The notes beneath the pieces were generated by a model, which was given only the letters and a program-made list of their open reading frames with translations, was not told the DNA's origin and searched no databases. The position numbers were made by a program, and so were the translations under genes. This document shows positions 7,657-27,630 of a DNA stretch of 31,379 nucleotides, piece after piece. The first letter of the stretch is position 1. Every line of letters begins with the position of its first letter. Source of the DNA: Schoenoplectus triqueter (taxonomy: Eukaryota; Streptophyta; Magnoliopsida; Poales; Cyperaceae). The stretch covers positions 1-31,379 of the forward strand of contig CAXKVV010001136.1 in assembly GCA_964058805.1 (NCBI GenBank), in the 5' to 3' direction.

Positions 7657-10600
7657 CTGCAAGAAAAATAAATGGGTTAGACAAATTGTTATAACCAAAG
7701 AAAAAATAGAAGGAAGAGAAGATCTAACCTATCGCCTCGTCGCCTGAGACAGGCGGGACTGAGTCAGGGATAGGGATGTCGGTCGCCTCAGGAGGACCCG
7801 CAGGTGTACCAGACCCGGCTACAAAACAAAATGAAAAGCATAAATACATGGAAAAGAAAAATACGGGCAAATGACAAAAGGAAATATAAGGTACCGGGAG
7901 AAGCATGAGGCTCGGCGAGACCCTCGCCAGCCAGGGCCCCCGTCTCTGGGCTGTGGAATAGCTGCTCCACCAGCCAACTCTCATCCAACTCTGAGTCATA
8001 ATCGACTGCAACCCGCTCAGTCGAGACTCTGCCATCTGTGGCCATGAGAGGCTGCTCGTCGGGAGATGAAGAAGCATGAGATGGCCCTCCCTCGATCAGT
8101 AATGGCTCGTCGCCTGCGGGCTCGACAGCCAATGGACTCCCCTGCTCTAAAGAAGCCTCCTCTGATCGTACAAGAGTGAGCACTGACCCTAGAACCACAT
8201 CAAAGGAGTCACCATCCCCGGTAGGCACCAATAAGATCGACGGTGAGGCAGGACCGTCGTAAAAGAAAGGCTCCGAGCGGTGTGGAGATGCCATGTCATC
8301 GGCCTCAGGGTCTGTAAAATCTACATGTAAGAATGAAAATACTAGTGCATGCTGGCAACTAGGTATTAAATGAAGCACACGAACCTGCGACGGCAAGGTC
8401 GGTGCAAAACCCTGAAATAGCAGTGCTCGCAGGCGCCGATAAATCTGCTATGATGTCATCTCGGGCGGCCTCCACAGGAGATGTCCCACGAGCTGAAAAA
8501 TAAACCCTAATCAGAGATGTAAATGAAGTGCGCCCGAGTAAAGATAGGTGAGTCAGTAAAGAAAATCACCCGGAGTGGGAGAAGGAAAAGAAGATAGAGA
8601 AGACGGCTGAGAGGCGCCGTCTCGATCTCTCCCCATGGTAGCTGGAGCCGGTGGCTCAACATGTGGCTGGGAATGAATGCCAACTACTCGTGGACGAGGG
8701 ACCGAGAACCCGGGCTCCGCGTGATCATACTCATAAGCCAGCTCTGAATCAAAGAAGAAGAATCGGTCGAAATGAGATAAGGCTTATCGAAAGGAAATAA
8801 CCTGAAGGGATGATAAAGCATACCTGTAAGAATGGTCCTAACAGGAGCACGAGAAAATCGGCTGTCTAAACCCTGAAAGTCGACAGGCTCTGCGGCAATG
8901 GCCGGGAAAGGGCTGCGATCACGCGAAACGGTGCCATCTAATAGAGGCTGGCCATCTCGCGGACATGTACTCCGGACGACCACCGGAGGAATATATGACT
9001 GGTAAGAGCGAATGGTCTCATAATACCACTGCTGATAACGCCTCGTGAAGGTGGAAGTCCTAGAGGTGGATACCATCTGATAGCGAGTGCCTGTGCCTAG
9101 TCGGAAGAGGTGAGTATAGCACCATCCGATACCCTCCAAATCAGCCGCCAATGATGTAGGGCGGAGAAGAGGCGCTGGAATATCCTGATCCAAGCCAAAC
9201 TGATGTGCGCATCGATGTGGCGAATAGGGCTCGATGAACATATAATCGCCCAATCTGAGAGGAAGAAAGCCCTGACGAATACTGATCAGGTACTCTAAAT
9301 CGATAGGCCTGGCTCGAATGCTAGAGGGGTCAGAAGAAGGGACCCTGCCATCAATCACCATCCTGTCAGCAACCCTAGCTGCCCCACGGGCCACTGATCT
9401 GTCTCGAGAGAAGCGCAGATGGTCTCGACTCCTGAAGAATCTATACCGAGCAGCCTCCGGAGTCAATGAAGCTGGCTGCACCCCAGCTAGGTCACTCAAT
9501 AAGGGTAAACGATCTCGTAGCGTGGCCGCCATGCCGGGATCATATGAGCCAGACCAATGTAAATGGAGCCATCCGCTAATCAGATGCCATGGGATCAGCT
9601 CCTGGCACTGTGAAGGACTACGAGATGAAGTCAGACCACGGAGGCACCTATAAATGTTGGCCAGTACAGGCACGGCCAAAGAAATCCTGTCGCCGCGCGC
9701 GATCAGGCTCGCCATAATGAACACCGAAGGCCGAATGGTGTATGCGGGGGAGCTAGGCAATAAGAAATAACAGATCCACCAAGAAATGAAGGCAGTCAAA
9801 TAAGTCTCCCGATCCACGTCATGTGAACACAGGGTATCCTGAGATGGGATAGGGCCGTCATGATGAATCTCGAGCCGACCTGTACCAAATGGATCTCTAG
9901 TGGAAGCCAAACCCGTAGGGCGAGTATGGACCCGATCGGTGAAATAGGCGATCCAATGTCTGAACGGAACTCCGGGATGCCCCCTCCGTAAATGATGATA
10001 AATCTCATAAATCCTATGCAAAGAAGGCGGGAATCGAGTGAAGTCTCCCGAGTCAGCGGGTGAGACCATGAACTCGTCATAGAAATGGCCGAAGATCGGC
10101 AGCCCGGTCAACTGCTGTATCTCTAGGAGGGTCGGAGTCAGCTCCCGATCGTCGATGAACAGAGTGTTAGTGGAATAGTTCCACCGCTCACAAAAGGCCC
10201 GTAGCCAGGGTGTGTCGATATGGTAATGGAACATCGACAAGAAAACCGAGTCATATATCCCGGCTCGCCTGAGCAGAGTCCCCTCCCGCATGAGCACATA
10301 CCGGGTCCACTCTAGCTGATATCCATAGCACTCCAAGGGAGTGATAAAAGGGGCAGTAGTCCATCTGTGAGCCTTCCCGTCGATAATCTCCTTGCCCAGG
10401 AGATGTGTCAAAGGAGCTGTAGAAGCGACGCCTAAGGGCTGAAGGGGTATGATATCATGAGGCTGATCATCCCTAAAGAATAAACCGCCGCCTCGCGGGT
10501 AGACAGGAGTCGCTCGGATGGCTGAGACGAGAGGAGTCCAATCACTAGGATCCTCGTAAAAAGAATGGTAGTGACTCAAGGGGCGACGCGGAATGGCGTC

Positions 10601-10729
10601 ATGAGAAGAAACTACAATACCCGAAGAGGAGAAGACGTCATGAGAAATGAAGTGATTAATGATAAGGAATAATGCACCAAGACAAGCCTTTCGAGCGTTC
10701 AAGACTCGTCTTGGTGGGTGGCTCTTTGT
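7046..10729 (-). CDS. Plant mobile domain (PMD, MAIN-like) protein gene, six exons, start unresolved
   Basis: Predicted exons on the minus strand: 10729-8824, 8743-8570, 8492-8385, 8311-7895, 7818-7729 and 7656-7046. All five introns begin GT, end AG after a pyrimidine-rich tract, are 72-80 nt long and split codons after the first base. Joined, the frame is open for about 1092 codons from 10702. Exon 1 holds the PMD (residues about 130-570 counted from 10702), with LLRRAGIYDSVFLSMF, CERWNYSTNTLF, ELTPTLLEIQQLTGLP, the YLTAFISWWICYFLLP block with IARGDRISLAVPVLANIYR, and PWHLISGWLHLHW. Exons 2-5 encode acidic, Ser/Pro-rich linker. Exon 6 encodes a helical, coiled-coil-like tail. PMDs occur both in transposons and in host proteins (MAIN, MAIL1) linked to gene expression and transposon silencing. 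No ATG opens exon 1: an in-frame TAA at 10732-10730 precedes it, so the start lies in an unseen upstream exon or is lost. It is antisense to gag-pol. Confidence 0.85.
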
Positions 10730-10801
10730 TTACCCTTGAAAGATATCAAGGATGAATAGATGAATAAATGAAAATAAAGTTGATGATTAATGATAAATCA
10801 T

Positions 10802-10826
10802 GAGAAGAGGGAAGAAGAGAAAGCAA
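10802..10826 (+). promoter_or_regulatory. Candidate polypurine tract (plus-strand primer of the retrotransposon)
   Basis: There are 22 consecutive purines at 10802-10823 (GAGAAGAGGGAAGAAGAGAAAG), followed by CAA and then TGAAAGATGG, the proposed LTR start. A polypurine tract directly before the 3' LTR primes second-strand synthesis in LTR elements. It is the only long purine run on the plus strand between the PMD gene and the repeat-rich region. It also lies close upstream of the PMD gene's 5' end. Confidence 0.55.
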
Positions 10827-10880
10827 TGAAAGATGGCCCACTAATCAGGAGAGGTCGCTGCTTAATCCCGGAATGGATCC

Positions 10881-11380
10881 ATTAGTCCCACAATGGAATG
10901 CTGGGCATGAAGTGAAGAGTATAAATACCCCACTATTCTCTATCCACTCAGCATGAGTGACAGCTGAGAGGATCGAGGGAGAGAGGAGATCTCTCGGGTG
11001 TCACCATGTGATTATATCTTTTCTGACAAGTGGGACCCACATGGCAGTCCTTTATGAGCAGCTCCAGTGACATGGACCTAGTCTATTTTGCTAAGAAAAC
11101 TAAACAACCCGGAACAGAGGTTAAGCATTAATCCCACAATGAAATATTAGGGTGAAAGACGAGGATATAAATACCCCACCACCTCCTACTCATTCGAGGT
11201 GGCTGACCCTCGGGAGATTTAGGAGAGAGAAAATCTCCTGATGGGTCAGTCATTTGATTACATTTTCTCTGACAAGTGGGACCCACCTGGCAGTCCCTTG
11301 TAGATGAATCTAACAACATAGCCTATCTGATGAGTCATCCATGTGACTATTTTCACTGACAGGTGGACCCCACACCTCAG
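10881..11380. repeat. U3 tandem repeats of about 246 bp with TATAAATA and hairpins
   Basis: Two copies are offset by 246-247 bases: ATTAGTCCCACAATG at 10881 and ATTAATCCCACAATG at 11128, TATAAATACCCCAC at 10920 and 11166, and TGACAAGTGGGACCCAC at 11024 and 11270. A shorter third piece (TGACAGGTGGACCCCAC) is at 11357. Between the TATAAATA and the GTGGGACCCAC motif each copy has a long stem-loop. In copy 1, 10957-10970 pairs with 10991-11004. In copy 2, 11203-11209 plus 11213-11220 pairs with 11231-11238 plus 11243-11249. The arms differ in sequence between copies. The TATAAATA motifs may be extra promoters on either strand. Confidence 0.75.
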
Positions 11381-11554
11381 TGACTTATTATAGGAGTCAG
11401 AATTGAACCCTAAAAATCTGCCCTTGGAGCTAACCCTAGAAAGGAGCTGAAGCAGTATAATCCCTATGCTACATGAAATGATGTCAATGCCAAGCTAGCA
11501 TTTTGATGCAACTAGTCATGAGAAATTTCAAATGTGATTTTGCTTTCAAGGCTG

Positions 11555-11765
11555 ACCTGGTGCCAAAGCTGCGAGCAACCACCTAACCATGCTTTGATTT
11601 GTGTCAATTACTGATAAGTAGTCAGTTCTTTGACCAAGTCACCCTCATGTTAAGGGATTGAAAGTCAATTTCACAAGACTGATCAGGTGCCAAAGCTGGG
11701 AGCAACCACCTGATCAAGTCTAGATTTGTATTAATTGCTGATAAGTAGTCAGCATTTGATCAAAT
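11555..11765. repeat. U3 direct repeat, period 127 bp, with covarying hairpin
   Basis: Two copies begin with GGTGCCAAAGCTG at 11559 and 11686. Copy 2 has a 13-bp stem (11676-11688 with 11708-11721, one bulged A). A second hairpin in each copy keeps the loop TAAGTAG but changes its closing pair: ACTGA/TCAGT at 11610-11626 and GCTGA/TCAGC at 11737-11753. Confidence 0.75.
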
Positions 11766-12188
11766 CAAGCCCTAATAAATATCAATATAAGTCTAATTGG
11801 TATTTAGTTAGGGTGGTTTCTGCAAGAGGAAGATAATTGGCAGAGACATTGAGTTACAAATGAGATCAGGGATTAATTCAGAAGGAATAATAGGGTTTTA
11901 TGGATAAAAGAATTTTTAATTCAGAGAAGGAAGGGTAAAAATGGAATTAAAAATTACAGGAGTGATTATCATGATTTTAGGGATTTTTGGTGAAATTTTC
12001 ATGATTTTTGGATAAGTGGAGCTATTAAAATAAATTCAGGGAAAATAAAGGCAGAATAAATGAATTAATCAAAGGCTGAGATTTGATCAGAGCAGTTCTG
12101 GGTGCAAGTTGGGGATAACAGCAGCTCTGGGTACAAACTGGGTGCAGGAAACACAGAAGGAATAAGATAAGAGAAGAGAGAGGGTGTG
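11766..12188. other. U3 stretch without a gene
   Basis: AT-rich, non-coding. It contains the short GGGATTTTTGG / TGATTTTTGG type duplication near 11976-12012 and no credible open frame. Nothing else was recognised. Confidence 0.4.
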
Positions 12189-12451
12189 CCACGTGGCAGC
12201 CTCTCATTGGGCCATGTCAGCAAGTGGGCCCCACCCTGGTATGAGTCACTGACATGTGGGCCCCACCTTAGTGCCACGTGGCAGACAACCAGTGGGCCAC
12301 CTCACCACCCCAGTGCCACATGGCTCTACACAATAGGGCCACTTCACCCTCCCAGTGCCACATGGCAACACCATGGCATCACACCTCAACACTCTAGTGC
12401 CATATGGCAGCTAACCATTGGCGCCACATCACAGGGGACTAAGCCACATGG
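12189..12451. repeat. 42-bp tandem array of CCAYRTGG (G-box/E-box-like) sites
   Basis: CCACGTGG occurs at 12189 and 12274, CCACATGG at 12316, 12358 and 12444, and CCATATGG at 12400, with a decayed copy (CCACCCTGG) at 12231. Spacings are 42, 43, 42, 42, 42 and 44 bases, so this is a seven-unit tandem repeat with one palindromic site per unit. CACGTG is the known core bound by plant bHLH and bZIP factors. Four helical turns between sites would place them on one face of the DNA. Its place in the proposed U3 suggests an enhancer role (inference). Confidence 0.75.
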
Positions 12452-13600
12452 CACTACACTACAGAGCCACCTCAGCATGTTATAACAGATGATTAATGGA
12501 TTGATTAAACAAGTGGACCTATCAGAGTGTGCCAAGTCAGATTGATTAAATTTAAGCAGGGAGTTAATCAATCCACAGCTGGACTAATGGGCCGAGATTC
12601 ATATACTTACATGTGGGGCCCATTTATCAGGTTTATGAATGTATAGCTCACACAGGCAATCATGCACCAAGCTTATGCACAGATCTAATCAGAGATTTAA
12701 ATCAAAAGAAAGGAATGATGTGCACCTGGCTCACTTGTATTGCGCCTCTGACTGTGGGTCCCACATAGTTGTGGACTCTGTGCGCCAAGCGCGCCTCCTT
12801 CTTTCTCTTCTCCTTCTCCCCTCCCTCTCTTCTTTCTTCTTCTCGACGAGGCAGAAGGCGCCATTAGAGGGGATCAAGCTCTCCGAAGCTCACAACTCCA
12901 ATTCCTTTCACCTAGAACTAGCCTATGCATGGGAGAGTATGTGCAATTGATCAGAATTGAAAAACAACAAATGAATAAGGTGATTGAGAGAGATGAATAC
13001 CTCGGGCAATTGATGAAGCACTTCAATTCCTACTTCAAAATCAAAAATTGATGATGCAAACCTTCTCCACTCACTTAGGCGACACTGTGTATGAAGAAAG
13101 GAGCAGCAATTAAGGGATGAATTGAAGTAATTGAGAAGAAGTGGTGAAGTCGGGCAAATGGGGAAAATTTGAAACCTTGCACTATTAGCTCGAATTATCA
13201 ATGCTGGCAGCTTCCCTATGCTTACACGATGCTGTTTAGATGATGGAGATTATCAATTGGATGGTGGAGATATGCTTTTGGCCAAGAGGTGGAATCGGGT
13301 GATGAAGCTTTAAGCTCTGAAGGAAAATAACAATGGCAGAGGGTAGAAGGGTATCCCAGATGCATTAGAGTGAGTATATATAGTATGTTTAGATGCTCTA
13401 GAAGGTTCTAGCAATAGATAGGAGGTGAGTCAAACATAGTCAACAGTGAAAGGCTTAAGCTTTGGATTCTTTGAATAGGGGCCCACATCGCAACAGAATG
13501 GATAACAGAATCAAAAGACCATGTTCATGAGCCAAGAGGGTCCAATTGCTGGTGTATGAGTGGTGTATAGCTCTAATCCCTTTGGTACACCCTTTAATTG
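12452..13600. other. U3 to promoter-proximal non-coding stretch with a 51-nt pyrimidine tract
   Basis: No gene is supported. An uninterrupted pyrimidine tract spans 12794-12844. Short open frames at 12639-12950 (plus) and 12923-13201 (minus) have no recognisable domain. Around 13370-13382 there is an alternative TATA-like run (GTATATATAGTATG). The pyrimidine tract would be a polypurine tract on the minus strand, or a plant core-promoter pyrimidine patch on the plus strand. Confidence 0.45.
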
Positions 13601-13601
13601 C

Positions 13602-13609
13602 TATATAAA
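13602..13609 (+). promoter_or_regulatory. TATA box of the candidate LTR promoter
   Basis: TATATAAA sits in the context CTATATAAACCCC and is followed after about 30 bases by an A-rich, AGAGAGA-type leader (about 13635-13730) like many plant 5' leaders. In the LTR model this marks the U3/R boundary near 13635. It is the strongest plus-strand TATA motif in the proposed LTR. Confidence 0.55.
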
Positions 13610-13750
13610 CCCCTAATCCATGGAAATTAAGAACAACACGCATACAGAAGACAAGAGACAGAGAGAAGACACTTTAGAGATTACATATAGAGTCTAGAGA
13701 GAGAAAAAGAGCAAGGAAGAGGCAAGAACCGAGGGAGATTTGATAGAATT

Positions 13751-14220
13751 GATTGATCTCAGTTTTAACTTGAGAACTCAATTCCTTTGCTTCAATTACT
13801 TATCTAGAGGTAAGCTATATACTCTATTATCTGCCAATTAAGGGTTAGTAGGTTTAATTCTTGAAGATTGGAGCTTTAGAGATGTAATCGTCACTGGATA
13901 TCAGTATTTCACTGTGCTGTCTTTGAATTTCTTCAAATTTCAACTATTTCTCCATGATTGTCTTCTTTATTTCATGCATTGCAAGTTTATAAAGCATAAA
14001 TCTTTTATTTCTTTCAATGAATTTTGTTTAAAGGTTGATGAATGAGGCTGTTAAATCGATTGATCTCAGTTCAACTTGAGAACTCGGTAACAGTTGAGTT
14101 CATTGATCAATTCTTGATTCTTGAGTGAGAATTATCTTGATCCTTGTTAGTACTATATGCATTAGGGTCTGTGGAGTCCTTTGAAGTCGATTGATCTCAG
14201 ATATAATCTTGAGAACTCGA
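13751..14220. repeat. Three dispersed hairpins with GATTGATCTCAG...TTGAGAACTC
   Basis: Copies start at 13751, 14058 and 14189. Each forms TCTCA plus a 3-bp inner stem, a 1-3 nt loop, and a return arm with a single bulged T before TGAGA. The inner stem is GTT/AAC in copies 1 and 2 and GAT/ATC in copy 3, so it changes in a matched way while the bulge is kept. They lie in the proposed R-U5, just after a consensus splice donor (AG/GTAAGC, GT at 13810-13811). Confidence 0.7.
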
Positions 14221-14613
14221 CTGATTTGAAGTTTTAATACTGTTATCGCGTTCCGTTTCTGAAATTGAGTTTTAGATTGAGAATTAGGGAAGATCATAAG
14301 CATAAGCATGTGTGTCATGGTTTGGATAAGTGTTATAAAGAATATTAAGCATGATAATGTCAATGTTGATCAATGAATAACAAGAATTTGAAGAAAATTG
14401 CGATCGGTACCAACAGCTTCTATTGCATTTCAACAACTATACCGAGTAGTGGAATCACAGACCAATTTGAATCGCTCTAATCATGTTAGAAGGCATTTAC
14501 ATGGGTACACGATACTAATTGAGTGGTTAATTGTTGAAAGAAACAACTAATTGTGTGGAATTTGCGGAATCTGAGACTCGGTACCGGTTGGTACTAAATC
14601 AGTTCATCTGACA

Positions 14614-14631
14614 TTGGTGCATAGCACAATC
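14614..14631 (+). promoter_or_regulatory. Possible primer-binding site next to the LTR end
   Basis: TTGGTGCATAGCACAATC directly follows the CA at 14612-14613. Primer-binding sites start TGG just inside a 5' LTR because tRNAs end in CCA. I cannot name the matching tRNA. If real, this LTR is also the 5' LTR of a second, decayed copy to the right. An ATG in good context (14715) opens only 18 codons. Confidence 0.3.
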
Positions 14632-15060
14632 CACCGCATAGATCATTAATCAAACGCCGTAGAATAATTCCTCACGGCAAGACGACCCTGAGGCAGTCTC
14701 CTGATCGGAGGGAGATGGCCGCAGTCGCCGGCGCCGCCAATGGCACGAATCTTGGAACTCATGTTGACTGAGGAGTCAGAGAATCGCGGCAGCACGGATA
14801 TTGACGCGCGTGTGTGAATCTTGAAGAGATCGGACGTGTGAAGTAAAGCGTCGCATTAAACAGAGATGTGGATATGGATCTGGGCCGTCCATCTAATACG
14901 AATCAATCTTGAAGCATATCCGGCGGCCCAAATAAGAATAAAGTTAAATGAAAGATAGGCGCCGATCTTGATACAGATCTGGTGGCCCATATTAAACCCA
15001 TTAATTAAATAATAACAGAATAGTGATAATATAGAGTAAATAAATGATTTGAAAATGCTC
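14632..15060. other. Non-coding transition, GC-rich then AT-rich
   Basis: A GC-rich patch around 14695-14760 contains the 18-codon ATG frame mentioned at the possible primer-binding site and a TGACT/AGTCA hairpin near 14764-14777. From about 14850 the composition drops steadily to AT-rich. Nothing codes here that I can support. Confidence 0.4.
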
Positions 15061-16136
15061 CTGAACTCCAAATTAACTCAAATTTGTTTCTAAAATTTTC
15101 TTATTTTTCATACTATTTTTCTATACAATAATATTCCAGTTTTAAAAATATGATCATGACAAAACAATTTAAAAGCAAAAGACATTACCTATATTGATAT
15201 GTTTGACCTAGCTTTGACTTGTCATTTTAAAAACTATAAAAATTCCAAAAATACAAATAAAAATCATAAATAATAACTAGATATATTTTAGTGATTTTTC
15301 AAGTGATTCTCCATGAAATAATAATGGTGATAGTAATATACCATAATAAATAATGAGATTAGCTATATCCTTTGATAAATAAAGAAATATGAATAATAAT
15401 AGATATTATGTTAATATTTTCTATAAAAAGAATAATAAAAATAAATAGCACAAAATATACAAAAAAAAAATATACTACCATGGTAATAAATAGTAAAATA
15501 TATTTTCTTTTATAATAAAAAATGATAATATAGCTTTATAATATGAATTGTATTTCTTTTGTTATACAATAAAAATACTAGTTGAATTTCATCTTTCAAC
15601 TAATAATAGTAAAAAAATCTTATATTTTTCTATGGATAATAAATAGAAATAATAAAAATAATGAATAATATAATAAATAGAATAGAATATTAATAATGAT
15701 TTCTTTTAGCTATTATAGATTTTTAAAAAAAATAAAAAAAATAATAATAAAAAAATATATATAATAATAATAACAAAAATAATATAGCTAACCATCTTTT
15801 GATTTTGTAAATAATTCCTACATAATGAATAGTGTTTCAACATAATAGAATATAATAATAAAATTCTATTACTTTGGCTATTTTAAAAATACACATAAAA
15901 ATCATAGCCATTTTATTTTCTAGTATTTTGTAAGTGATTTTCTACAAAATAAATAGAGTTTAGAAATAATAAAAATAAATTTCTACTATTTTAGCTATTA
16001 TAAAAATCCCAAAAATATAAATGAAAATCTAGTTAAATAGCTAACCCCTTTTCCTATTATTTTTGTAAGTAATTTTTCTACATAGATAAATAGAGTTTAA
16101 GAAATAAAAGTAATAATAATAGTAATAAGAATATAA

Positions 16137-16178
<42 letters not shown>

Positions 16179-16318
16179 GCATCTTTATAATAAAAATAAT
16201 AATGGAAGATATTATATAATAAACTTTGTGCATCTTAGAAATGAATAAATATGCTCACATAAGGAGTGCAGAGCCACATAAGAATATTTGCACACATGAT
16301 ATAACATTTAGAATGATT
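15061..16318. other. Very AT-rich region with imperfect 125-135 bp repeats and an (AAT)n microsatellite
   Basis: Most of this 1.2 kb is A and T, dominated by TAATAATA-type runs. (AAT)10 lies at 16141-16170. A motif TTTTGTAA...TTTCTACA...AAATAGAGTTT recurs near 15801, 15925 and 16059, giving diffuse repeats. No open frame is credible. Regions of this composition can act as matrix-attachment or easily melted DNA, but that is speculation. Confidence 0.6.
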
Positions 16319-16998
16319 AGTCAAGACGAGAACACCTTGACGGAGGATAAATAAGGTTGCAATGACAACACGAAAAGATGCGTTGAGACAGGAACATCTC
16401 GACGTAGGATGATTAAGGCTTCGATAGCAATATGAAGAAGATACGTTGAGACAAGAACATCTTGACGTGAGATGATTAAGGCTTTAATAGCAACATGAGA
16501 GGATATGTCGAGACAAGAACATCTTGACACTTGATGAAGAATAATAAAATACGTTGAGACAGGAACATCTTGACGTAAGATGAATAAGGCTTTGATGGCA
16601 ACATGAGTGAATATGTCGAGACAAGAACATCTTGACGCTTGATGAAGAATAGCCAGAGCTGCAACATCAGCATGGAGAGATATATGTCGACTCTGAAGAA
16701 GAAGAACATTATGATGTCCTAGATAGGTGACATCTTAATGACTCACTGCCATGAGCAAGTAACTCATGATTGAATACGCTCACACAAAGGGGTGTAGGGC
16801 AACGTAGTAATTTTGCACAAGTAATGCAACACGTAGAATGATTAGTCGAGACAAGAACATCTTGACGCTCGCTGAAGAATGACCAAAGCTACGACATCAG
16901 CATGGAGAGATATGTCGACTTTGAAGAAGAAGAACATTACGATGTCCGAGCAAAGCGACATCTTAATGACTCGGTGTCATGAACAAGTAATTCATGAC
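16319..16998. repeat. Hairpin minisatellite and larger nested duplication
   Basis: A 62-63-bp unit (one variant spacing of 45) carries the imperfect palindrome GAGACAAGAACATCTTGAC. Copies begin near 16320, 16381, 16444, 16506, 16552 and 16614, with another near 16848. Arms include CGTTGAGA/TCTCGACG (16381-16404) and TGTCGAGA/TCTTGACA (16506-16529). A 230-bp duplication (CATCAGCATGGAGAGA at 16665 and 16895) adds two more hairpins: a GATGTC/GACATC stem extended by ATTA/TAAT (16708-16739 and 16936-16967), and CATGAG/CTCATG (16750-16768) versus GTCATGAA/TTCATGAC (16976-16998) around the same loop CAAGTAA. Confidence 0.8.
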
Positions 16999-17017
16999 CA
17001 TTGGAGCTAGCAAGACT

Positions 17018-17603
17018 GAACTCATCCGTCGATAAGTTCGTCTCCTGGTTCATTTCCCGAGACTGTGAGATTGAATCGTTCTGTAGGTAGATTCATCCAC
17101 AAAACAGTGAATGTGAACCGTTCTGTAGGTAGGTTCCTTCACTAACACATGCCTCAATGTCGAACTGGCTCAGCGCTTCAGGTTTGACATTGTGTGTAAT
17201 TGTGTTTCCTAGGTTTATGAATCGGCTTAGTGCTTCGAATTCATGATCTAGAAGATCGGTGAGAAGAAACACGTGGGCCATATCCACCCTTCTCCTGATT
17301 CACCAACCTCAAGATCAACCGGCTCAGCGCTTCGAGTTGTATTTTGTGTGATTGGTTGTTGACTAGTTAAGATTGAACCGATCTGTTTGTAGGTTTATCT
17401 TCTAGATCAACGGAGGTCGAGTCGTTCTGTATGTAGACTCACCTCAAGCCCCTCTAAAGAGATTAACCTGGTCTGTAGGTAAGGTTACATCTCGAGGTGG
17501 CATAGACTGAACCGATCTGTTTGTAGGTTCGTCTTCCATAGGACAAAACCGATCTGTTTGTAGGTTTGTCTTCCATAGATTGAACCGATCTGTTTGTAGG
17601 TTC
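17018..17603. repeat. Array of two hairpin families with conserved loops and covarying stems
   Basis: Family 1 has nine copies with a 12-nt loop (mostly GATCTGTTTGTA or GTTCTGTAGGTA). The arm pairs are GAACT/AGTTC (17018), GAATC/GATTC (17073), GAACC/GGTTC (17115), GAACC/GGTTT (17375), GAGTC/GACTC (17419), TAACC/GGTTA (17464), GAACC/GGTTC (17509), AAACC/GGTTT (17546) and GAACC/GGTTC (17582). The last three are spaced 36-37 bp. Several extend further past one bulged base (GAGGT/ACCTC at copy 5, GAGAT/ATCTC at copy 6, GAC/GTC at others). Family 2 has three copies with a 16-nt loop like CGGCTCAGCGCTTCGA and stems CAATGTCGAAC/GTTTGACATTG (17155-17192), ATGAAT/ATTCAT (17217-17244) and CAAC/GTTG (17316-17339). 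Confidence 0.85.
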
Positions 17604-17926
17604 GTCTTCCATGGACCCCTTTTTATAAACCTAGACGACCACTTGACCATCTTTTAACTATACTATTTGCTTCTCTCTTTCAAAGATCCAGAGGTGCCTC
17701 GAGGTTAGTAGCCCAGGGTAATTAACGGTGGGGGCTTGCGCCCACCGGAATCTACAAGAACTCACAATCACTAAAAACCCCCTGAATGTGCATCCAAATA
17801 TCTCTAAACGGCTGAATCGGCCGACACCCGTCAGATGCACGCTCGGGAGGGATCTCCGTGTCCTTCTTCCGCAAACCCATCGCCCAGCGGCGGTGCGGCG
17901 GCGCGCGAAAAAGGGTCGCACACGGC
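17604..17926. other. Non-coding transition to the satellite
   Basis: A TATA-like TTTTATAAAC sits at 17621-17630. A perfect 7-bp inverted repeat CGGTGGG/CCCACCG lies near 17726-17747. GC content rises sharply from about 17800, and 17880-17926 looks like decayed satellite or its immediate precursor (GCGCGCGAAAAAGGGTCGC). No gene is supported. Confidence 0.5.
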
Positions 17927-19339
17927 GGTACCGGAGCGTCGGGTCCCGTTTTCAAGATTTGCGCGCCCGGACTCGTTTTCGGCGGTACCGAGGGCGTCGG
18001 GTCCCGTTTTCATGTTTTGCGCTCCCGGACACGTTTTTGGCGGGACCGAGGGACTCGGGTCCCGTTTTCAAGATTTGCGCGCCCGGACTCGTTTTCGACG
18101 GAACCGAGGGCCTCGGGTCCCGTTTTCAGGTTTTGCGCGCCCAGACTCGTTTTCGGCGGTACCGAGGGCGTCGGGTCCCGTTTCCATGTTTTGCGCGCCC
18201 GGACTGGCTTTCGGAGGTACCGAGGGCGTCGGGTCCCGTTTTTATGTTTTGCCCGCCCGACTCGTTTTCGGCGGTACCGAGGGCGTCGGGTCCCGTTTTC
18301 ATATTTTGCGCGCCCGGACTCATTTTCGGCGGTACCGAGGGCGTCGAGTCCTTGTTTCATGTTTTGCGCGCCCGGACTCGTTTTCGGCGGTACCGAGGCC
18401 GTCTTGTCCCATTTTCGGTTTTGCGCGCCCGGACTCGTTTTCGGCGTTACCGGGGGCGAAGGGTCCCGTTTTCAAGATTTGCGCGCCCGGACTCGTTTTC
18501 GGCGGTACCGAGGGCCTCGGGTCCCGTTTTCAAGATTTGCGCGCCCTGACTCGTTTTCGACGGTACCGAGGGCCTCGGGTCCCGTTTTCATGTTTTGCGC
18601 GCCCGGACTCGTTTTCGGCGGTACCGAGGGCCTCGGGTCCCGTTTTCAAGATTTGCGCGCTCGGACTCGTTTTCGGCGGTACCCAGCGCGTCGGGTCCCG
18701 TTTTCATGTTTTGCGCGCCCCGACTCATTTTCGGCGGTACCGAGGGCGTCGGGACCCGTTTTCAAGTTTTGCCTGCCCGGACTCGTTTTCGGCGGTACCG
18801 GGGGCCTCGGGTCCCGTTTTCATGTTTTGCGCGCCCGGACTCGTTTTCGGCGGTACCGAGGGCGTCGGGTATCTTTTTCATGTTTTGCACGCCCAGACTC
18901 GTTTTCGGCGGTACCGAGGGCGTCGGGTATCTTGTTTATGTTTTGCGCGCCCGGACTCGTTTTCGGCGGTACCGAGGGTGTCGGGTCCCGTTTTCATGTT
19001 TTCCGTGACCGGTCTCATTTTCGGCGGTACCGAGGGCGTCGGGTCCCGTTTTCATGTTTTGCGGGCCCGGACTCGTTTTCGGCGTTACCGGGGGCGTCGG
19101 GTCCCGTTTTCAAGATTTGCGCGCCCGGACTCGTTTTCGGCGGTACCGAGGGCCTCGGGTCCCGTTTTCAAGATTTGCGCGCCCTGAATCATTTTCGGCG
19201 GTACCGAGGGCGTCGGGTCCCGTTTTCATGTTTTGCGCGCCCGGACTCGCTTTCGAAGGTACCGAGGGCGTCGGGTCCCGTTTTCATGATTTGCGCGCCC
19301 GGACTCGTTTTCGGCGGTACCGAGGGCGTCGGGTCCCGT

Positions 19340-21540
19340 TTTCATGTTTTGCGCGCCCGGACTCATTTTCGGCGGTACCGAGGGCGTCGGGTCCCTGTTT
19401 CATGTTTTGCGCGCCCGGACTCGTTTTCGGCGGTACCGAGGCCGTCTTGTCCCATTTTCGGTTTTGCGCGCCCGGACTCGTTTTCGGCGGTACCGGGGGC
19501 GTCGGGTCCCGTTTTCAAGATTTGCGTGCCCGGACTCGTTTTCGGCGGTATCGAGGGCGTCGGGTCCCGTTTTCATGATTTGCGCTCCCGGACACGTTTT
19601 TGGCGGTACCGAGGGACTCGGGTCCCGTTTTCAAGATTTGCGCGCCCGGACTCACTTTCGACGGAACCGAGGGCCTCGGGTCCCGTTTTCAGGTTTTGCG
19701 CGCCCGGTCTCGTTTTCGGCGGTACCGAGGGCGTCGGGTCCCGTTTCCATGTTTTGCGCGCCCGGACTGGCTTTCGGAGGTACTGAGGGCGTCGGGTCCC
19801 GTTTCTATGTTTTGCCCGCCCCGACTCGTTTTCGGCGGTACCGAGGGCGTCGGGTCCCGTTTTCATGTTTTGCGCGCCCGGACTCGTTTTCGGCGGTACC
19901 GAGGGCGTCGGGTCCCGTTTCCATGTTTTGCCCGCCCCGACTCGTTTTCGGCGGTACCGAGGGCGTCGGGTCCCGTTTCCATGTTTTGCCCGCCCGGACA
20001 CGTTTTCGGCGGTACCGAGGGCGTCGGGTCCTGTTTTCATGTTTTGCGCGCCCGGACTCGTTTTCGGCGGTACCGAGGGCGTCGGGTATCTTTTTCATGT
20101 TTTGCGCGCCCGGACTCGATTTCGGCAGTACCGAGGGCGTCGGGTATCTTTTTCATGTTTTGCGCGCCCCGACTCGTTTTCGGCGGTACCGAGGTCGTCG
20201 GGTCCCGTTTTCATGTTTTGCGCGCCCGTACTCACTTTCGGCGGTACCGAGGGCGTCAGGTCCCTTTTTCATGTTTTGCGCGCCCGGACTCGTTTTCGGC
20301 GGTACCGAGGGCGCCGGGTTCCGTTTTCATGTTTTTCGCGCCCGTACTCATTTTCGGCGGTACCGAGGGCGCCGGTTCCGTTTTCAAGTTTTGCGCGCCC
20401 GGACTCATTTTCGGCGGTACCGAGGACGTCGGGTCCCGTTTTCATGTTTTGCTCGCCCGGACTAATTTTCGGCGGTACCGAGGGCGTCCGGTCCCTTTTT
20501 CATGTTTTGCACGCCCGGACTCGTTTTCGGCGGTACCGAGGCCGTCTTGTCCCATTTTCGGTTTTGCGCGCCCGGACTCGTTTTCGGCGGTACCGGGGGC
20601 GTCGGGTCCCGTTTTCAAGATTTGCGCGCCCGGACTCGTTTTCGGCGATATCGAGGGCGTCGGGTCCCGTTTTCATGTTTTGCGCTCCCGGACACATTTT
20701 TGGCGGTACCGTGGGACTCGGGTCCCGTTTTCAAGATTTGCGCGCCCGGACTCACTTTCGACGGAACCGAGGGCCTCGGGTCCCGTTTTCAGGTTTTGCG
20801 CGCCCGGACTCGTTTTCGGCGGTACCGAGGGCGTCGGGTCCCGTTTCCATGTTTTGTGCGCCCGGACTGGCTTTCGGAGGTACTGAGGGCGTCGGGTCCC
20901 GTTTCTATGTTTTGCCCGCCCCGACTCGTTTTCGGCGGTACCGAGGGCGTCGGGTCCCGTTTTCATGTTTTGCGCGCCCGGACTCGTTTTCGGCGGTACC
21001 GAGGGCGTCGGGTCTCGTTTCCATGTTTTGCCCGCCCCGACTCGTTTTCGGCGGTACCGAGGGCGTCGGGTCCCGTTTTCATGTTTTGCGCGCCCGGACA
21101 CGTTTTCGGCGGTACCGAGGACGTCGGGTCCCGTTTTCATGTTTTGCGCGCCCGGACTCATTTTCGGCGGTACCGAGGGCGTCGGGTATCTTTTTCATGT
21201 TTTGCGCGCCCGGAGTCGATTTCGGCAGTACCGAGGGCGTCGGGTATCTTTTTCATGTTTTGCGCGCCCCGACTCGTTTTCGGCGGTACCGAGGTCGTCG
21301 GGTCCCGTTTTCATGTTTTGCGCGCCCGTACTCACTTTCGGCGGTACCGAGGGCGTCAGGTCCCTTTTTCATGTTTTGCGCGCCCGGACTCATTTTCGGC
21401 GGTACCGAGGGCGTCGGGTCCCGTTTTCATGTTTTGCGCGCCCGGACTCGTTTTCGGCGGTACCGAGGGCGTCGGGTCCCGTTTTCATGTTTTGCGCGCC
21501 CGTACTCATTTTCGGCGGTACCGAGGGCGCCGGTTCCGTT
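19340..21540. repeat. Higher-order tandem duplication, 1100 bp (about 19 monomers)
   Basis: Diagnostic variants recur at exactly 1100 bases: GCCGTCTTGTCCC at 19441 and 20541, GCTCCCGGACAC at 19584 and 20684, and CGGA(C/G)TCGATTTCGGCAG at 20111 and 21211. The two blocks are directly adjacent. An older, partly matching piece with the same GCCGTCTTGT variant is at 18398. Confidence 0.8.
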
Positions 21541-24139
21541 TTCTTTTATTGCGCGCCCGGACTCATTTTCGGCGGTACCGAGGACGTCGGGTCCCGTTTT
21601 CATGTTTTGCTCGCCCGGACTCGTTTTCGGCGTTACCGGGGGCGTCGGGTCCCGTTTTCCAGATTTGCGCGCCCGGACTCGTTTTCGGCGGTACCGAGGG
21701 CCTCGGGTCCCGTTTTCAAGATTTGCGCGCCCCGAATCATTTTCGGCGGTACCGAGGGCGTCGGGTCCTGTTTTCAAGATTTGCACGCCCGGACTCGTTT
21801 TCGACGGTACCGAGGGCCTCGGGTCCTGTTTTCATGTTTTGCGCGCCCGGACTCGTTTTCGACGGTACCGAGGGCCTCGGGTCCCGTTTTCAAGATTTGC
21901 GCGCTCGGACTCGTTTTCGGCGGTACCCAGCGCGTCGGGTCCCGTTTTCATGTTTTGCGCGCCCCGACTCGTTTTCGGCGGTACCGAGGGCGTCCGATCC
22001 CCCTTTCATGTTTTGCGCGCCCGGACTCGTTTTCGGCGGTACCGAGGGCGTCGGGACCCGTTTTTCAAGTTTTGCGCGCCCGGACTCGTTTTCGGCGGTA
22101 CCGAGGGCCTTGGGTCCCGTTTTCAAGATTTGCGCGCTCGGACTAATTTTCGACGGTACCGAGGGCGTCGGGTCCCGTTTTTATGTTTTACGCGCCCGGA
22201 CTCGTTTTCGGCGGTACCGAGGGCGTCGGGTCCCGTTTTCATGTTTTGCGCGCCCGGATTCGTTTTCGACGGTACCGGGGGCCTCGGGTCCCGTTTTCAT
22301 GTTTTGCGCGCCCGGACTCGTTTTCGGTGGTACCGAGGGCGTCGGGTATCTTTTTCATGTTTTGCGCGCCCGGACTTGTTTTCGACGGTACCGAGGGCGT
22401 CAGGTATCTTGTTCATGTTTTGCGCGCCCGGACTCGTTTTCGACGGTACCGAGGTCGTCGGGTCCCGTTTTTATGTTTTGCGCGCCCGTACTCATTTTCG
22501 GCGGTACCGAGGGCGTCGGGTCCCGTTTTCATGTTTTGCGCGCCCGGACTCGTTTTCGGCGTTACCGGGGGCGTCGGGTCCCGTTTTCAAGATTTGCGCG
22601 CCCGGACTCGTTTTCGGCGGTACCGAGGGCGTCGGGTCCCGTTTTCAAGATTTGCGCGCCCTGAATCATTTTCGGCGGTACCGAGGTCGTCGGGTCCCGT
22701 TTTCATGTTTTGCGTGCCCGGACTCGTTTTCGGCGGTACCGAGGACTCATTTTCGGCGGTACCGAGGGCCTCGGGTCCCGTTTTCAAGATTTGCGCGCTC
22801 ATACTCATTTTCGGCGGTACCGATTGCGTCGGGTCCCGTTTTTATGTTCTGCGCGCCCGGACTCATTTTCGGCGGTACCGAGGGCGTCGGGTCCCGTAAT
22901 CTTGTTTTGCGCGCCCGGACTCGTTTTCGGCGGTACCGAGGGCGTCGGGTATCTTTTTCATGTTTTGCGCGCCCGGACTCGTTTCCGGCGGTACCGAGGG
23001 CGTCGGGTCCCGTTTTCATGTCTTGCGCGCCCCTACTCGTTATCGGCGGTACCGAGGGCGTGCCATCCCTTTTTCATGTTTTGCGCGCCCGGACTCGTTT
23101 TCGATGGTACCGAGGGCGTCTTGTCCCATTTTCATGTTTTGCGCTCCCGGACACGTTTTTGGCGGTACCGAGGGACACGGGTCCCGTTTTCAGGTTTTGC
23201 GCGCCCGGACCCGTTTTCGGCGGTACCGAGGGCGTCGGGTCCCGTTTCCATGTTTTGCGCGCCCGGACTGGCTTTCGGCGGTACCGAGGGCGTCGGGTCC
23301 CGTTTCTATGTTTTGCCCGCCCCGACTCGTTTTCGGCGGTACCGTGGGCGTCGGGTCCCGTTTTCATGTTTTGCGCGCCCGAACTCGTTTTCGGCGGTAC
23401 CGAGGTCGTCGGGACCCGTTTTCAAGTTTTGCGCGCCCGAACTCGTTTTCGGCGGTACCGAGGTCGTCGGGATCCGTTGTCAAGATTTGCGCGCGCGGAC
23501 TCATTTTCGGCGGTACCGAGGGCGTCGGGTCCCGTTTTCATGTTTTGCGCGCCCGGACTCGTTATCGGCGGTACCGAGGGCGTCGGGGCCCGTTTTCAAG
23601 TTTTGCGCGCCGGGACTCGTTTTCGGCGGTACCGAGGGCCTCGGGTTCCGTTTTCAAGATTTGCTCGCTCGGACTCATTTTCGGCGGTACCGAGGGCGTC
23701 GGGTCCTGTTTTTATGTTTTGCTTGCCCGGACCCATTTTCGGCGGTACCGAGGGCGTCGGGTCCCGATTTCATGTTTTGCGCGCCCGGATTCGTTTTCGG
23801 CGGTACCGGGGGCATCGGGGCCCGTTTTCAACGGTACCGAGGGCGTCGGGTCCCATTTTCATGTTTTGCGCTCCCGGACTCGTTTTCAGCGGTACCGGGG
23901 GCGTCGGGTCCCGTTTTTAAGATTTGCGCGCCCGGACTCATTTTCGACGGAACCGAGGGCCTCGGGTCCCGTTTTCAGGTTTTGCGCGCCCGGACTCGTT
24001 TTCGACGGTACCGAGGGCGTCGGGTCCCGTTTCCATGTTTTGCGCGCCCGGACTGGCTTTCGGAGGTACCGAGGGCGTCGGGTCCCGTTTCTATGTTTTT
24101 GCCCGCCCCGACTCGTTTTCGGCGGTACCGAGGGCGTCG

Positions 24140-27100
24140 GGTCCCGTTTTCATGTTTTCCGCGCCCGGACTCGTTTTCGGCGGTACCGAGGGCGTCGGGT
24201 CCCGTTTCCATGTTTTGCCCGCCCCGACTCGTTTTCAGCGGTACCGAGGGCGTCAGGTCCCATTTTCATGTTTTGCGCGACCGGACACGTTTTCGGCGGT
24301 ACCGAGGGCCTCGGGACCCGTTTTCAAGTTTTGCACGCCCGGACTCGTTTTCGGCGGTACCGAGGGCCTCGGGTCCCGTTTTCATGTTTTGCGCGACCGG
24401 ACTCGTTTTCGGCGGAACCGAGGGCTTCGGGTATCTTTTTCTTGTTTTGCGCGCCCGGACTCGTTTTCGACGGTGCCGGGGGCCTCGGGTCCCGTTATCG
24501 TGTTTTGCGCGCCCGGACTCATTTTCGGCGGTACCGAGGGCGTCGGGTCCCGTTTTCATGTTTTGCGCGCCCGGACTCGTTTTCGGCGTTACCGGGGGCG
24601 TCCGGTCCCGTTTTCAAGATTTGCGCGCCCGGACTCGTTTTCGGCGGTATCGAGGGCGTCGGGTCACCTTTACAAGATTTGCGCGCTCGGACTCGTTTTC
24701 GGCGGTACCCAGCGCGTCGGGTCCCGTTTTCATGTTTTGCGCGCCCCGACTCGTTTTCGGCGGTACCGAGGGCGTCCGGTCCCCCTTTCATGTTTTGCGC
24801 GCCCCGACTCGTTTTCAGCGGTACCGAGGGCGTCGGGTCCCATTTTCATGTTTTGCGCTCCCGGACACGTTTTCGGCGGTACCGAGGGACTCGGGTCCCG
24901 TTTGCAAGATTTGCGCGCCCGGACTCGTTTTCGAAGGTACCGAGGGCCTCGGGTCCCGTTTTCAGGTTTTGTGCGCCCGGACTCGTTTTCGGCGGTTCCG
25001 AGGGCGTCGGGTCCCGTTTCCATGTTTTGCGCGCCCGGACTGGCTTCCGGCGGTACCGAGGGCGTCGGGTCCCGTTTCTATGTTTTTGCCCGCCCCGACT
25101 CGTTTTTGGCGGTACCGAGGGCGTCGGGTCCCGTTTTCATGTTTTCCGCGCCCGGACTCATTTTCAGCGTTACCGGGGGCGTCGGGTCCCGTTTTCAAGA
25201 TTTGCGTGCCCGGACTCGTTTTCGGCGGTATCGAGGGCGTCGGGTCACCTTTTCAAGATTTGCGCGCTCGGACTCTTTTTCGGCGGTACCCAGCGCGTCG
25301 GGTCCCGTTTTCATGTTTTGCGCGCCCCGACTCGTTTTCGGCGGTACCGAGGACGTCCGGTCCCCCTTTCATGTTTTGCGCGCCCCGACTCGTTTTCGGC
25401 GGTGCCGAGGGCGTCTTGTCCCGTTTTCAAGTTTTGCGCGCCGGGACTCATTTTCGGCGGTACCGAGGGCGTCTTGTCCCATTTTCATGTTTTGCGCTCC
25501 CGGACACGTGTTCGGCGGTACCGAGGGACTCGGGTCCCGTTTGCAAGATTTGCGCGCCCGGACTCGTTTTCGAAGGTACCGAGGGCCTCGGGTCCCGTTT
25601 TCAGGTTTTGTGCGCCCGGACTCGTTTTCGGCGGTTCCGAGGGCGTCGGGTCCCGTTTCCATGTTTTGCGCGCCCGGACTGGCTTCCGGCGGTACCGAGG
25701 GCGTCGGGTCCCGTTTCTATGTTTTGCCCGCCCCGACTCGTTTTCGGCGGTACCGAGGGCCTCGGGATCCGTTGTCAAGATTTGCGCGCGCGGACTCATT
25801 TTCGGCGGTACGGAGGGCGTCGGGACCCGTTTTCAAGTTTTGCACGCCCGGACTCGTTTTCGGCGGTACCGAGGGCGTCGGGACCCGTTTTCAAGTTTTG
25901 CACGCCCGGACTCGTTTTCGGCGGTACCGAGGGCGTCGGGACCCGTTTTCAAGTTTTGCACGCCCGGACTCGTTTTCGGCGGTACCGAGGGCCTCGGGTC
26001 CCGTTTTCATGTTTTGCGCGCCCGGACTCGTTTTCGGCGATACCGAGGGCTTCGGGTATCTTTTTCATGTTTTGCGCGCCCGGACTCGTTTTCGACGGTA
26101 CCGAGGGCCTCGGGTCCCGTTTTCGTGTTTTGCGCGCCCGGACTCGTTTTCGGCGGTACCGAGGGCGTCGGGTCCCGTTTTCATGTCTTGCCCGCCCCGA
26201 CTCGTTTTCAGCGGTACCGAGGGCCTCGGGTTCCGTTTTCAAGATTTGCGCGCTCGGACTCATTTTCGGCGGTACGGAGGGCGTCGGGTCCCGTTTTCAT
26301 GTTTTGCGCGCCCGGACTCGTTTTCAGCGGTACCGGGGGCGTCGGGTCCCGTTTTCAAGATTTGCGCGCCCGGACTCGTTTTCGGCGGTACCGAGGGCGT
26401 CGGGTCCCGTTTTCATCTTTTGCGCGCCCGGACTCGTTTTCGGCGGTACTGAGTGCGTCGCGTCCCGTTTTGCGGGCCCGGACTGGTTTTCGGCGGTACC
26501 GAGGGCGTCGGGTCCCGTTTTCATGTTTTGCGCGCCCGGACTCTTTTTCGGCGGTACCGAGGGCGTCGGGTATCTTTTTCATGTTTTGCGCGCCCGGACT
26601 CATTTTCGGTGGTGCCGAGGGCGTCGGGTCCCGTTTTCAAGTTTTGCGCGCCCGGACTCGTTTTCGGCGTTACCGGGGGCGTCGGGTCCCGTTTTCAAGA
26701 TTTGCGCGCCCGGACTCGTTTTCGGCGGTATCGAGGGCGTCGGGTCACCTTTACAAGATTTGCGCGCTCGGACTCGTTTTCGGCGGTACCCAGCGCGTCG
26801 GGTCCCGTTTTCATGTTTTGCGCGCCCCGACTCGTTTTCGGCGGTACCGAGGGCGTCCGGTCCCCCTTTCATGTTTTGCGCGCCCCGACTCGTTTTCAGC
26901 GGTACCGAGGGCGTCGGGTCCCATTTTCATGTTTTGCGCTCCCGGACACGTTTTCGGCGGTACCGAGGGACTCGGGTCCCGTTTGCAAGATTTGCGCGCC
27001 CGGACTCGTTTTCGAAGGTACCGAGGGCCTCGGGTCCCGTTTTCAGGTTTTGTGCGCCCGAACTCGTTTTCGGCGGTTCCGAGGGCGTCGGGTCCCGTTT

Positions 27101-27630
27101 CCATGTTTTGCGCGCCCGGACTGGCTTCCGGCGGTACCGAGGGCGTCGGGTCCCGTTTCTATGTTTTTGCCCGCCCCGACTCGTTTTCGGCGGTACCGAG
27201 GGCGTCGGGTCCCGTTTTCATGTTTTCCGCGCCAGGACTCGTTTTCGGCGGTACCGAGGGCGTCGGGTCCCGTTTCCATGTTTTGCCCACCCCGACTCGT
27301 TTTCAGCGGTACCGAGGGCGTCGGGTCCCATTTTCATGTTTTGCGCGCCCGGACACGTTTTCGGCGGTACCGAGGGCGTCGGGACCCGTTTTCAAGTTTT
27401 GCACTCCCGGACTCGTTTTCGGCGGTACCGAGGGCCTCGGGTCCCGTTTTCATGTTTTGCGCGCCCGGACTCGTTTTCGGCGGAACCGAGGGCTTCGGGT
27501 ATCTTTTTCATGTTTTGCGCGCCCGGACTCGTTTTCGACGGTGCCGAGGGCCTCGGGTCCCGTTTTCGTGTTTTGCGCGCCCGGACTCGTTTTCGGCGGT
27601 ACCGAGGGCGTCGGGTCCCGTTTTAATGTC
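24140..27630. repeat. Two more internal duplications (offsets 2081 and 3068) in swapped order
   Basis: The block 24580-25140 recurs at 26660-27220 (offset 2081; ACCCAGCGCG at 24707 and 26788). The block 24140-24560 recurs at 27210-27630 (offset 3068; CATGTTTTCC at 24151 and 27219, CGGAACCGAGGGCTTCGG at 24413 and 27481). In the left copy the order is 3068-block then 2081-block. In the right copy it is reversed, so the array is a mosaic rather than a simple higher-order repeat. Confidence 0.75.

Follow-up and report, generated by a model that had tools for sequence, protein, structure and literature searches.

The window, the whole stretch of 31,379 bp of Schoenoplectus triqueter DNA analysed here (assembly searched: 82,091,230 bases, 2086 contigs), carries a retrotransposon truncated on its 5' side and followed by a satellite array. 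The + strand is the coding strand of gag-pol, and the main parts of the element are the following.

1 to 5304, + strand: gag-pol open frame, truncated by the window start, with RVT_1, RT_RNaseH, RVT_3, Integrase_H2C2 and rve in that order
8684 to 10702, - strand: antisense extra open reading frame with a Plant Mobile Domain (PF10536, E 3.9e-27)
10727 to 17922, + strand: 3' LTR of the retrotransposon, 7196 bp, its end taken from the LTR pair on contig C51 and its start from the motif TGTTTACCC

Within gag-pol, the Pfam domains occupy residues 765-924 (RVT_1), 1014-1117 (RT_RNaseH), 1187-1299 (RVT_3), 1406-1460 (H2C2) and 1479-1576 (rve). The accessible text of Neumann et al. 2019 (PMC6317226) gives two RNase H domains, the second between RH and INT, as the arrangement of Ogre/Retand elements of the Tat lineage. 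Because a second RNase H (aRH) sits between RH and INT here too, the window element is classified, from its domain order, as a Tat-lineage (Ogre/Retand-type) Ty3/gypsy retrotransposon. It further resembles the elements described there in its extra open reading frame with a plant mobile domain (found in 57% of Ogre elements), its very long LTRs and the tandem repeats in its non-coding parts. Among the 120 protein matches listed for pol residues 600-1300, the best relatives come from Ananas (70-73% identity), Dioscorea (72%) and Dendrobium (67%).

The LTR boundaries were set with a complete element of the same kind on contig C51, whose LTRs (23222-29638 and 40832-47247) are 99.7-99.9% identical over their aligned pieces. 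This element is flanked on both outer sides by AGACC, a target-site duplication, and has a TGG-starting, primer-site-like (PBS-like) stretch two to six bases past its 5' LTR end; LTR pair, target-site duplication and primer site were all assessed on this copy, the 5' part of the window copy lying outside its contig. Both C51 LTRs start with TGTTTACCC and end with CGCACA. In the window TGTTTACCC occurs once, at 10727, and CGCACA ends at 17922, which gives an LTR of 7196 bp. Directly at the LTR end starts a 58-bp GC-rich satellite (17923-31379, about 232 copies), and stop-free long frames cross this array; this would fit an insertion of the retrotransposon into the satellite as well as an origin of the satellite from the retrotransposon. 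A TATAAA near 17623 is present in window-like copies; as a promoter it was dropped, being missing at that place in the related loci L047 and L058.

Nine hairpins, 309-915 bases from the 3' end of the LTR, are the subject of this analysis. We searched both strands of the window, filters off, with a covariance model, R1 (43 positions, 71 sequences, 9 pairs). The nine hairpins proposed by the initial annotation were all recovered, on the + strand, between 17007 and 17613 and at E 4.4e-10 to 0.0026, matches that are partly by construction since the related copies behind R1 include these hairpins as they occur in window-like LTRs. Of the 16 window matches listed over both strands, the remaining seven have E values of 2.2 or worse.

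17007 to 17049, + strand: hairpin 1, arms GAACT/AGTTC at 17018-17022/17035-17039, divergent loop CATCCGTCGATA, fold z -3.15; R1 25.0 bits, E 0.0011
17062 to 17104, + strand: hairpin 2, arms GAATC/GATTC, loop 17078-17089; 33.3 bits, E 8.9e-06
17105 to 17146, + strand: hairpin 3, arms GAACC/GGTTC, loop 17120-17131; 23.5 bits, E 0.0026
17364 to 17406, + strand: hairpin 4, arms GAACC/GGTTT (one G.T), loop 17380-17391; 50.4 bits, E 4.4e-10
17408 to 17450, + strand: hairpin 5, GAGGT-C-GAGTC/GACTC-ACCTC (17413-17445), loop 17424-17435; 27.4 bits, E 0.00028
17454 to 17496, + strand: hairpin 6, arms TAACCT/AGGTTA and outer GAGAT/ATCTC (17459-17493), loop 17470-17481; 29.3 bits, E 9.1e-05
17498 to 17540, + strand: hairpin 7, arms GAACC/GGTTC and outer AGAC/GTCT, loop 17514-17525; 49.3 bits, E 8.1e-10
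17542 to 17570, + strand: hairpin 8, arms AAACC/GGTTT, loop 17551-17562; 29.3 bits, E 9e-05 (local match, model positions 8-36)
17571 to 17613, + strand: hairpin 9, arms GAACC/GGTTC, loop 17587-17598; 48.1 bits, E 1.6e-09

The array had been placed at 17018-17603, where it is indeed present, although as part of a larger hairpin-rich stretch of about 16.25-17.61 kb. The single conserved 12-nt loop attributed to it holds for eight of the nine copies, which carry close variants of one 12-mer (four GATCTGTTTGTA, two GTTCTGTAGGTA, one GTTCTGTATGTA and one GGTCTGTAGGTA); the first copy (17018-17039) departs from it, its loop CATCCGTCGATA having 7 of 12 letters the same as GATCTGTTTGTA. Similarly, the extension of two copies to about 10 bp past a bulged base is seen but is not special to them, the second stem being a feature of the family; the first of the two starts at 17413 and not at 17414, and the bulge of the other (17459-17493) folds on the 3' side. 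Folded singly, the eight conserved-loop copies are only modestly better than shuffled sequences (z -0.81 to -2.39). ARAGORN found no tRNA in the window, a scan of 16200-17930 with 4227 Rfam covariance models gave no match at E<=1, and the exact 22-nt pattern had no match in the viral contig collection.

The hairpins belong to a large family. A 20-nt core with up to 3 mismatches matches the 82-Mb assembly 2315 times, against 8 for the reversed control, and the loop 12-mer within one mismatch 2808 times, against 487. The array is present in both C51 LTRs; R1 gave 97 matches at E<=1 on 15 further loci and none at that threshold in L059-L062, which cover most of what remains of the C51 LTRs and the adjacent pol end. 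The fetched loci hold arrays of 2 to 19 counted hairpins, and identity between the subfamilies in the search tables is 71-100% across the array. For the comparative analysis, copies were taken from 90 sources (89 loci and the window) wherever the loop had at most 2 mismatches and another such place lay 30-300 nt away. The arms were not used for selection, and the set comprises 471 unique 64-nt contexts from 86 of the 90 sources, all of one genome. It replaced a set of 740 contexts with 3-mismatch loop matches, which was too noisy.

In these copies the motif consists of a 12-nt loop, 5 bp, a bulged base (usually a 5' U or C), 4 bp and a loosely paired base. All five inner pairs are Watson-Crick in 314 of the 471 copies, four in 123, three in 28 and fewer in 6; hence the stems are not mostly unpaired in other genomic copies, 465 of 471 keeping at least three inner pairs. 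The arms nonetheless occur in 90 combinations, including 15 different perfect stems: GAACT/AGTTC (123), GAACC/GGTTC (57), GAATC/GATTC (37), GAGTC/GACTC (31), AAACT/AGTTT (16), AACCT/AGGTT (15), GATCT/AGATC (13), AAACC/GGTTT (11) and seven rarer ones. When excess pairing was computed for every pair of columns (166 contexts), a signal appeared at -1 to -5 against +1 to +5 and a second one, shifted by one base, at -7 to -10 against +6 to +9.

We assessed covariation in two ways. Firstly, in 74 mutually distant copies (9 pairs, 648 cells, 500 shuffles), 82.1% of the cells are paired (shuffled, 74.3 +- 0.8), 69 cells are doubly changed (24.1 +- 3.9) and the covariation score is 0.345 (0.206 +- 0.012); 0 of 500 shuffles reach any of these values, while the number of pairs changed on both sides, nine, is equalled by 40 of 500. 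Structures slid by 1-3 columns pair at most 47.5% of the cells and score at most 0.143. RNAalifold predicted no pair on the first 74-row alignment, which contained misregistered rows; with the three rows misregistered by MAFFT left out (71 of 74), it recovered the five inner pairs without being given them, every one with compensated rows. Secondly, as a control for relatedness, we counted changes along a minimum spanning tree of the 471 contexts, using the 403 of its 470 edges with a distance of 1-14 and three or more inner Watson-Crick pairs in each of the two joined sequences, a filter that treats G.T and A.C alike. The inner stem changed on both sides of a pair 21 times, against 5.6 expected if changes were independent and 6 and 5 in slid controls, and 16 of these changes led from one Watson-Crick pair to another. 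Over all nine pairs there are 23 double Watson-Crick swaps, a number reached by 0 of 493 scrambled pairings (mean 1.6, maximum 7). The matched changes of the arms, first noticed among the copies in the window, thus extend to covariation beyond every shuffle in the larger alignment; chance as the cause of the hairpins is discounted in view of the shuffles and the R1 E values.

Covariation by itself could also be produced by a mutation process, template switching or arm conversion, that perfects imperfect palindromes with no selection involved: the arms do match, and tandem duplication is clearly ongoing in arrays of such variable length. Such a process would, however, erase A.C and G.T mismatches equally, and duplex DNA is likewise not expected to give an asymmetry of G.T over A.C. 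When one base of a Watson-Crick pair undergoes a transition, the result is either G.T, which is paired in + strand RNA, or A.C, which is a G.U pair in - strand RNA. Along the 403 edges, single changes produced G.T 134 times and A.C 55 times, with G.T ahead at all nine pairs (bootstrap of the G.T share, 0.65-0.77), whereas non-partner pairs of the same columns gave 435 and 518 (Fisher 1.9e-10, too small a value as tree edges share sequences). The ratio is 88:35 for GC-type and 46:20 for AT-type pairs; an excess of C/T over A/G changes is disfavoured as the cause because the AT class would then shift the opposite way. It is 119:52 in divergent subfamilies, 14:3 in window-like copies and 33:29 on edges at distance 15-30. 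Since 22 of 493 scrambled pairings match the observed G.T share, column make-up alone can sometimes give it. A modelled outer third stem is unsupported as modelled because its ratio is reversed (45:96), and over the whole 16.24-17.66 kb, in 34 unique window-like rows, the asymmetry is weak (+ strand 84:65, - strand 63:73). RNAfold z-scores are low on both strands. With G.T exceeding A.C on the + strand, these sequence comparisons favour selection as sense RNA over duplex DNA or palindrome repair; this is the best reading and not proof, and the strand inference is good but not final. Of the three causes first offered for the matched arms (a selected RNA, cruciform DNA and template switching), the ratio of 134:55 favours the RNA and speaks against both DNA branches. 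The mutation process, which also leaves unexplained why the loop is conserved between copies with differing flanks, we regard as highly improbable.

A role at the DNA level could otherwise be expected from the position of the array just upstream of the probable core promoter, where the hairpins might act as palindromic cis-regulatory repeats, that is, as transcription-factor sites in U3. This has been proposed for the RM boxes of Sireviruses, palindromic clusters in the LTRs of Ty1/copia elements that lie upstream of the TATA box, have eight or more copies in each of the 13 elements tabulated and are thought to be regulatory DNA, according to the accessible portion of Bousios et al. 2010 (PMC2829016). 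What the two share is a cluster of numerous short inverted repeats in the LTR of a plant element, drawn upstream of a TATA box. The same portion gives the RM boxes a CGG-CCG arm core (12 of 13), little or no loop and a motif 66-100% identical within an element, whereas the hairpins described here have covarying arms, a fixed 12-nt loop, a bulge and a sense-strand G.T signature. In the arms, with GAACT/AGTTC the commonest combination, no conserved CGG-CCG core was found, and the loop is conserved instead; INT follows RT and RNase H, the Ty3/gypsy order and not that of a Ty1/copia Sirevirus host. The Sirevirus inverted-repeat clusters are the nearest known counterpart of the hairpin family, which differs from them by element class and by an RNA-like sequence logic. 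Arms that vary in matched pairs around a fixed loop are the reverse of a palindromic site, and we consider transcription-factor sites improbable. We found no description of covarying hairpins in Ogre/Retand elements in the accessible text of PMC6317226, nor a published description of such a hairpin family in the open-licence literature searched.

Palindrome clusters of Sireviruses have also been reported to attract small RNAs, in the part of PMC10760457 available, and the hairpins might accordingly matter mainly as small-RNA sources of the host, as miRNA-like or DCL substrates whose structure is read by silencing. The element would draw no benefit from keeping hairpins for its own silencing, and typical DCL substrates are not short bulged stems with a fixed loop; we hold this reading to be very improbable.

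Some positions of the loop are nearly fixed. Along the 403 edges, changes at loop positions 3, 5, 7, 11 and 12 number 8, 3, 9, 1 and 2; there are 87 and 49 at positions 4 and 6, and 31-57 at each of the flank columns -22 to -12. Standing fixed in a loop that is free elsewhere, this U..U.U...UA pattern suggests that a putative partner recognises it. The loops also show UUUGUA/UGUA, a plant far-upstream poly(A) element, and the array could be a U3 enhancer of 3'-end formation, by which the 3' LTR would be processed and the 5' LTR not. Of 465 loops, 327 have UGUA at positions 5-8 or 9-12, and between 17000 and 17613 the words are sense-biased (TGTA 11 on + and 1 on -, TTTGTA 4 and 0). Likewise, the probable R region follows downstream of the array, and UUUGUA is a recurrent far-upstream (FUE) motif resembling the CFIm site UGUA in the accessible text of PMC10082929. 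Yet 138 of the 465 loops have no UGUA in either frame, the positions that are fixed (3, 5, 7, 11, 12) differ from the UGUA word, position 9 varies, and the hairpins begin up to about 600 nt before the last one, beyond the usual FUE span of 60-130 nt given in the same text. The array thus shares with the far-upstream element a sense-strand word found in many loops, and departs from it in fixed loop positions that lie off the word, a far greater length and display on a stem. The UGUA loops keep 3'-end enhancement a candidate role, though an unlikely one.

A large share of plant genomes consists of LTR retrotransposons, and, to our knowledge, little is known of how these elements single out their genomic RNA when it is to be exported, packaged or formed at its 3' end. 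We propose that the nine hairpins are probably one array of a structured-RNA motif family in the LTRs of Tat-lineage Ty3/gypsy elements, selected as sense RNA. Transcription of the 3' LTR would place the array in the 3' part of the genomic RNA; were the start site to lie upstream of the array, the 5' leader would contain it as well. The repeated hairpins would serve a loop-reading protein as a multivalent platform by which the genomic RNA of the element itself is marked, their repetition providing avidity. Hairpin number would rise and fall by tandem duplication, and the stems would drift through G.U intermediates while the recognised loop is kept. The likeliest partner, though held with low confidence, would be the element's own Gag, acting in RNA selection; a host export, stability or 3'-end factor would be the alternative. 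Retroviral constitutive transport elements, packaging hairpins and the rows of coat-protein-binding hairpins in the alfalfa mosaic virus 3' UTR are likewise repeated hairpins with conserved loops, protein-bound and near the 3' end of genomic RNA, a likeness to the array by description only. In a wider reading, advanced tentatively and with a little less than even confidence, the tandem, loop-conserved, bulged hairpins of Tat-lineage LTR retrotransposons would form a new family of cis-acting structured RNA, with thousands of genomic copies, which near the 3' end of the genomic RNA would act as a multivalent recognition code, read in trans by a protein (the element's Gag or an RNA-processing factor of the host). 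A motif with measurable covariation and a wobble signature is a concrete, testable RNA element, and the contrast of G.T with A.C between close paralogues offers a simple test of RNA-level against DNA-level selection for other repeats long read as promoter palindromes.

Other structured features lie in the same LTR.

16253 to 17003, + strand: upstream hairpin-rich part with other hairpin types (RNAfold z scan; RNAalifold of 34 unique window-like rows)
17144 to 17206, + strand: family-B hairpin, loop GGCTCAGCGCTTC, 25 bp when window-like copies are folded together by RNAalifold
17209 to 17251, + strand: family-B hairpin, loop GGCTTAGTGCTTC
17302 to 17356, + strand: family-B hairpin, loop GGCTCAGCGCTTC

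Family-B stems covary: they show 14 double Watson-Crick swaps and the two slid controls none; their G.T:A.C ratio is 52:42 (stem to -5), and one slid control stands at 36:16. A 41-nt piece of the 17302-17356 hairpin, folded alone, has a z of only -0.32 and a different minimum-energy fold. The loop core is AGCGCT in 45 and AGTGCT in 61 of the 267 selected contexts, which were kept out of 623 by a pairing rule and so include chance members. The core, AGCGCU/AGUGCU in RNA, is self-complementary, and kissing or dimer loops (dimer initiation) are possible, the sequence being suggestive only. In the upstream part (16253-16998) there are GTCGAGA/TCTTGAC repeats with the loop CAAGAACA, and CATGAG/CTCATG and CATGAA/TTCATG around a CAAGTA loop amount to a G-C to A-T swap between two copies; a further hairpin lies at 16976-16998.

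A stretch of some 60 bases close to the 3' part of the LTR (window 17632-17694; L039 2672-2731 and other 5' LTR contexts) has an inverted copy of 81-87% identity, which lies about 33-92 bases past the 5' LTR end and was seen at 16 of 61 anchor sites tested. Because this copy follows the 5' LTR end, a long leader stem would enclose U5 and the primer site in its loop; no excess of G.T over A.C was found there. Finally, two other parts of the LTR, 11201-11400 and 11601-11900, have strong RNA folding scores (z down to -6.7), and the latter stretch is a 127-bp tandem duplication.
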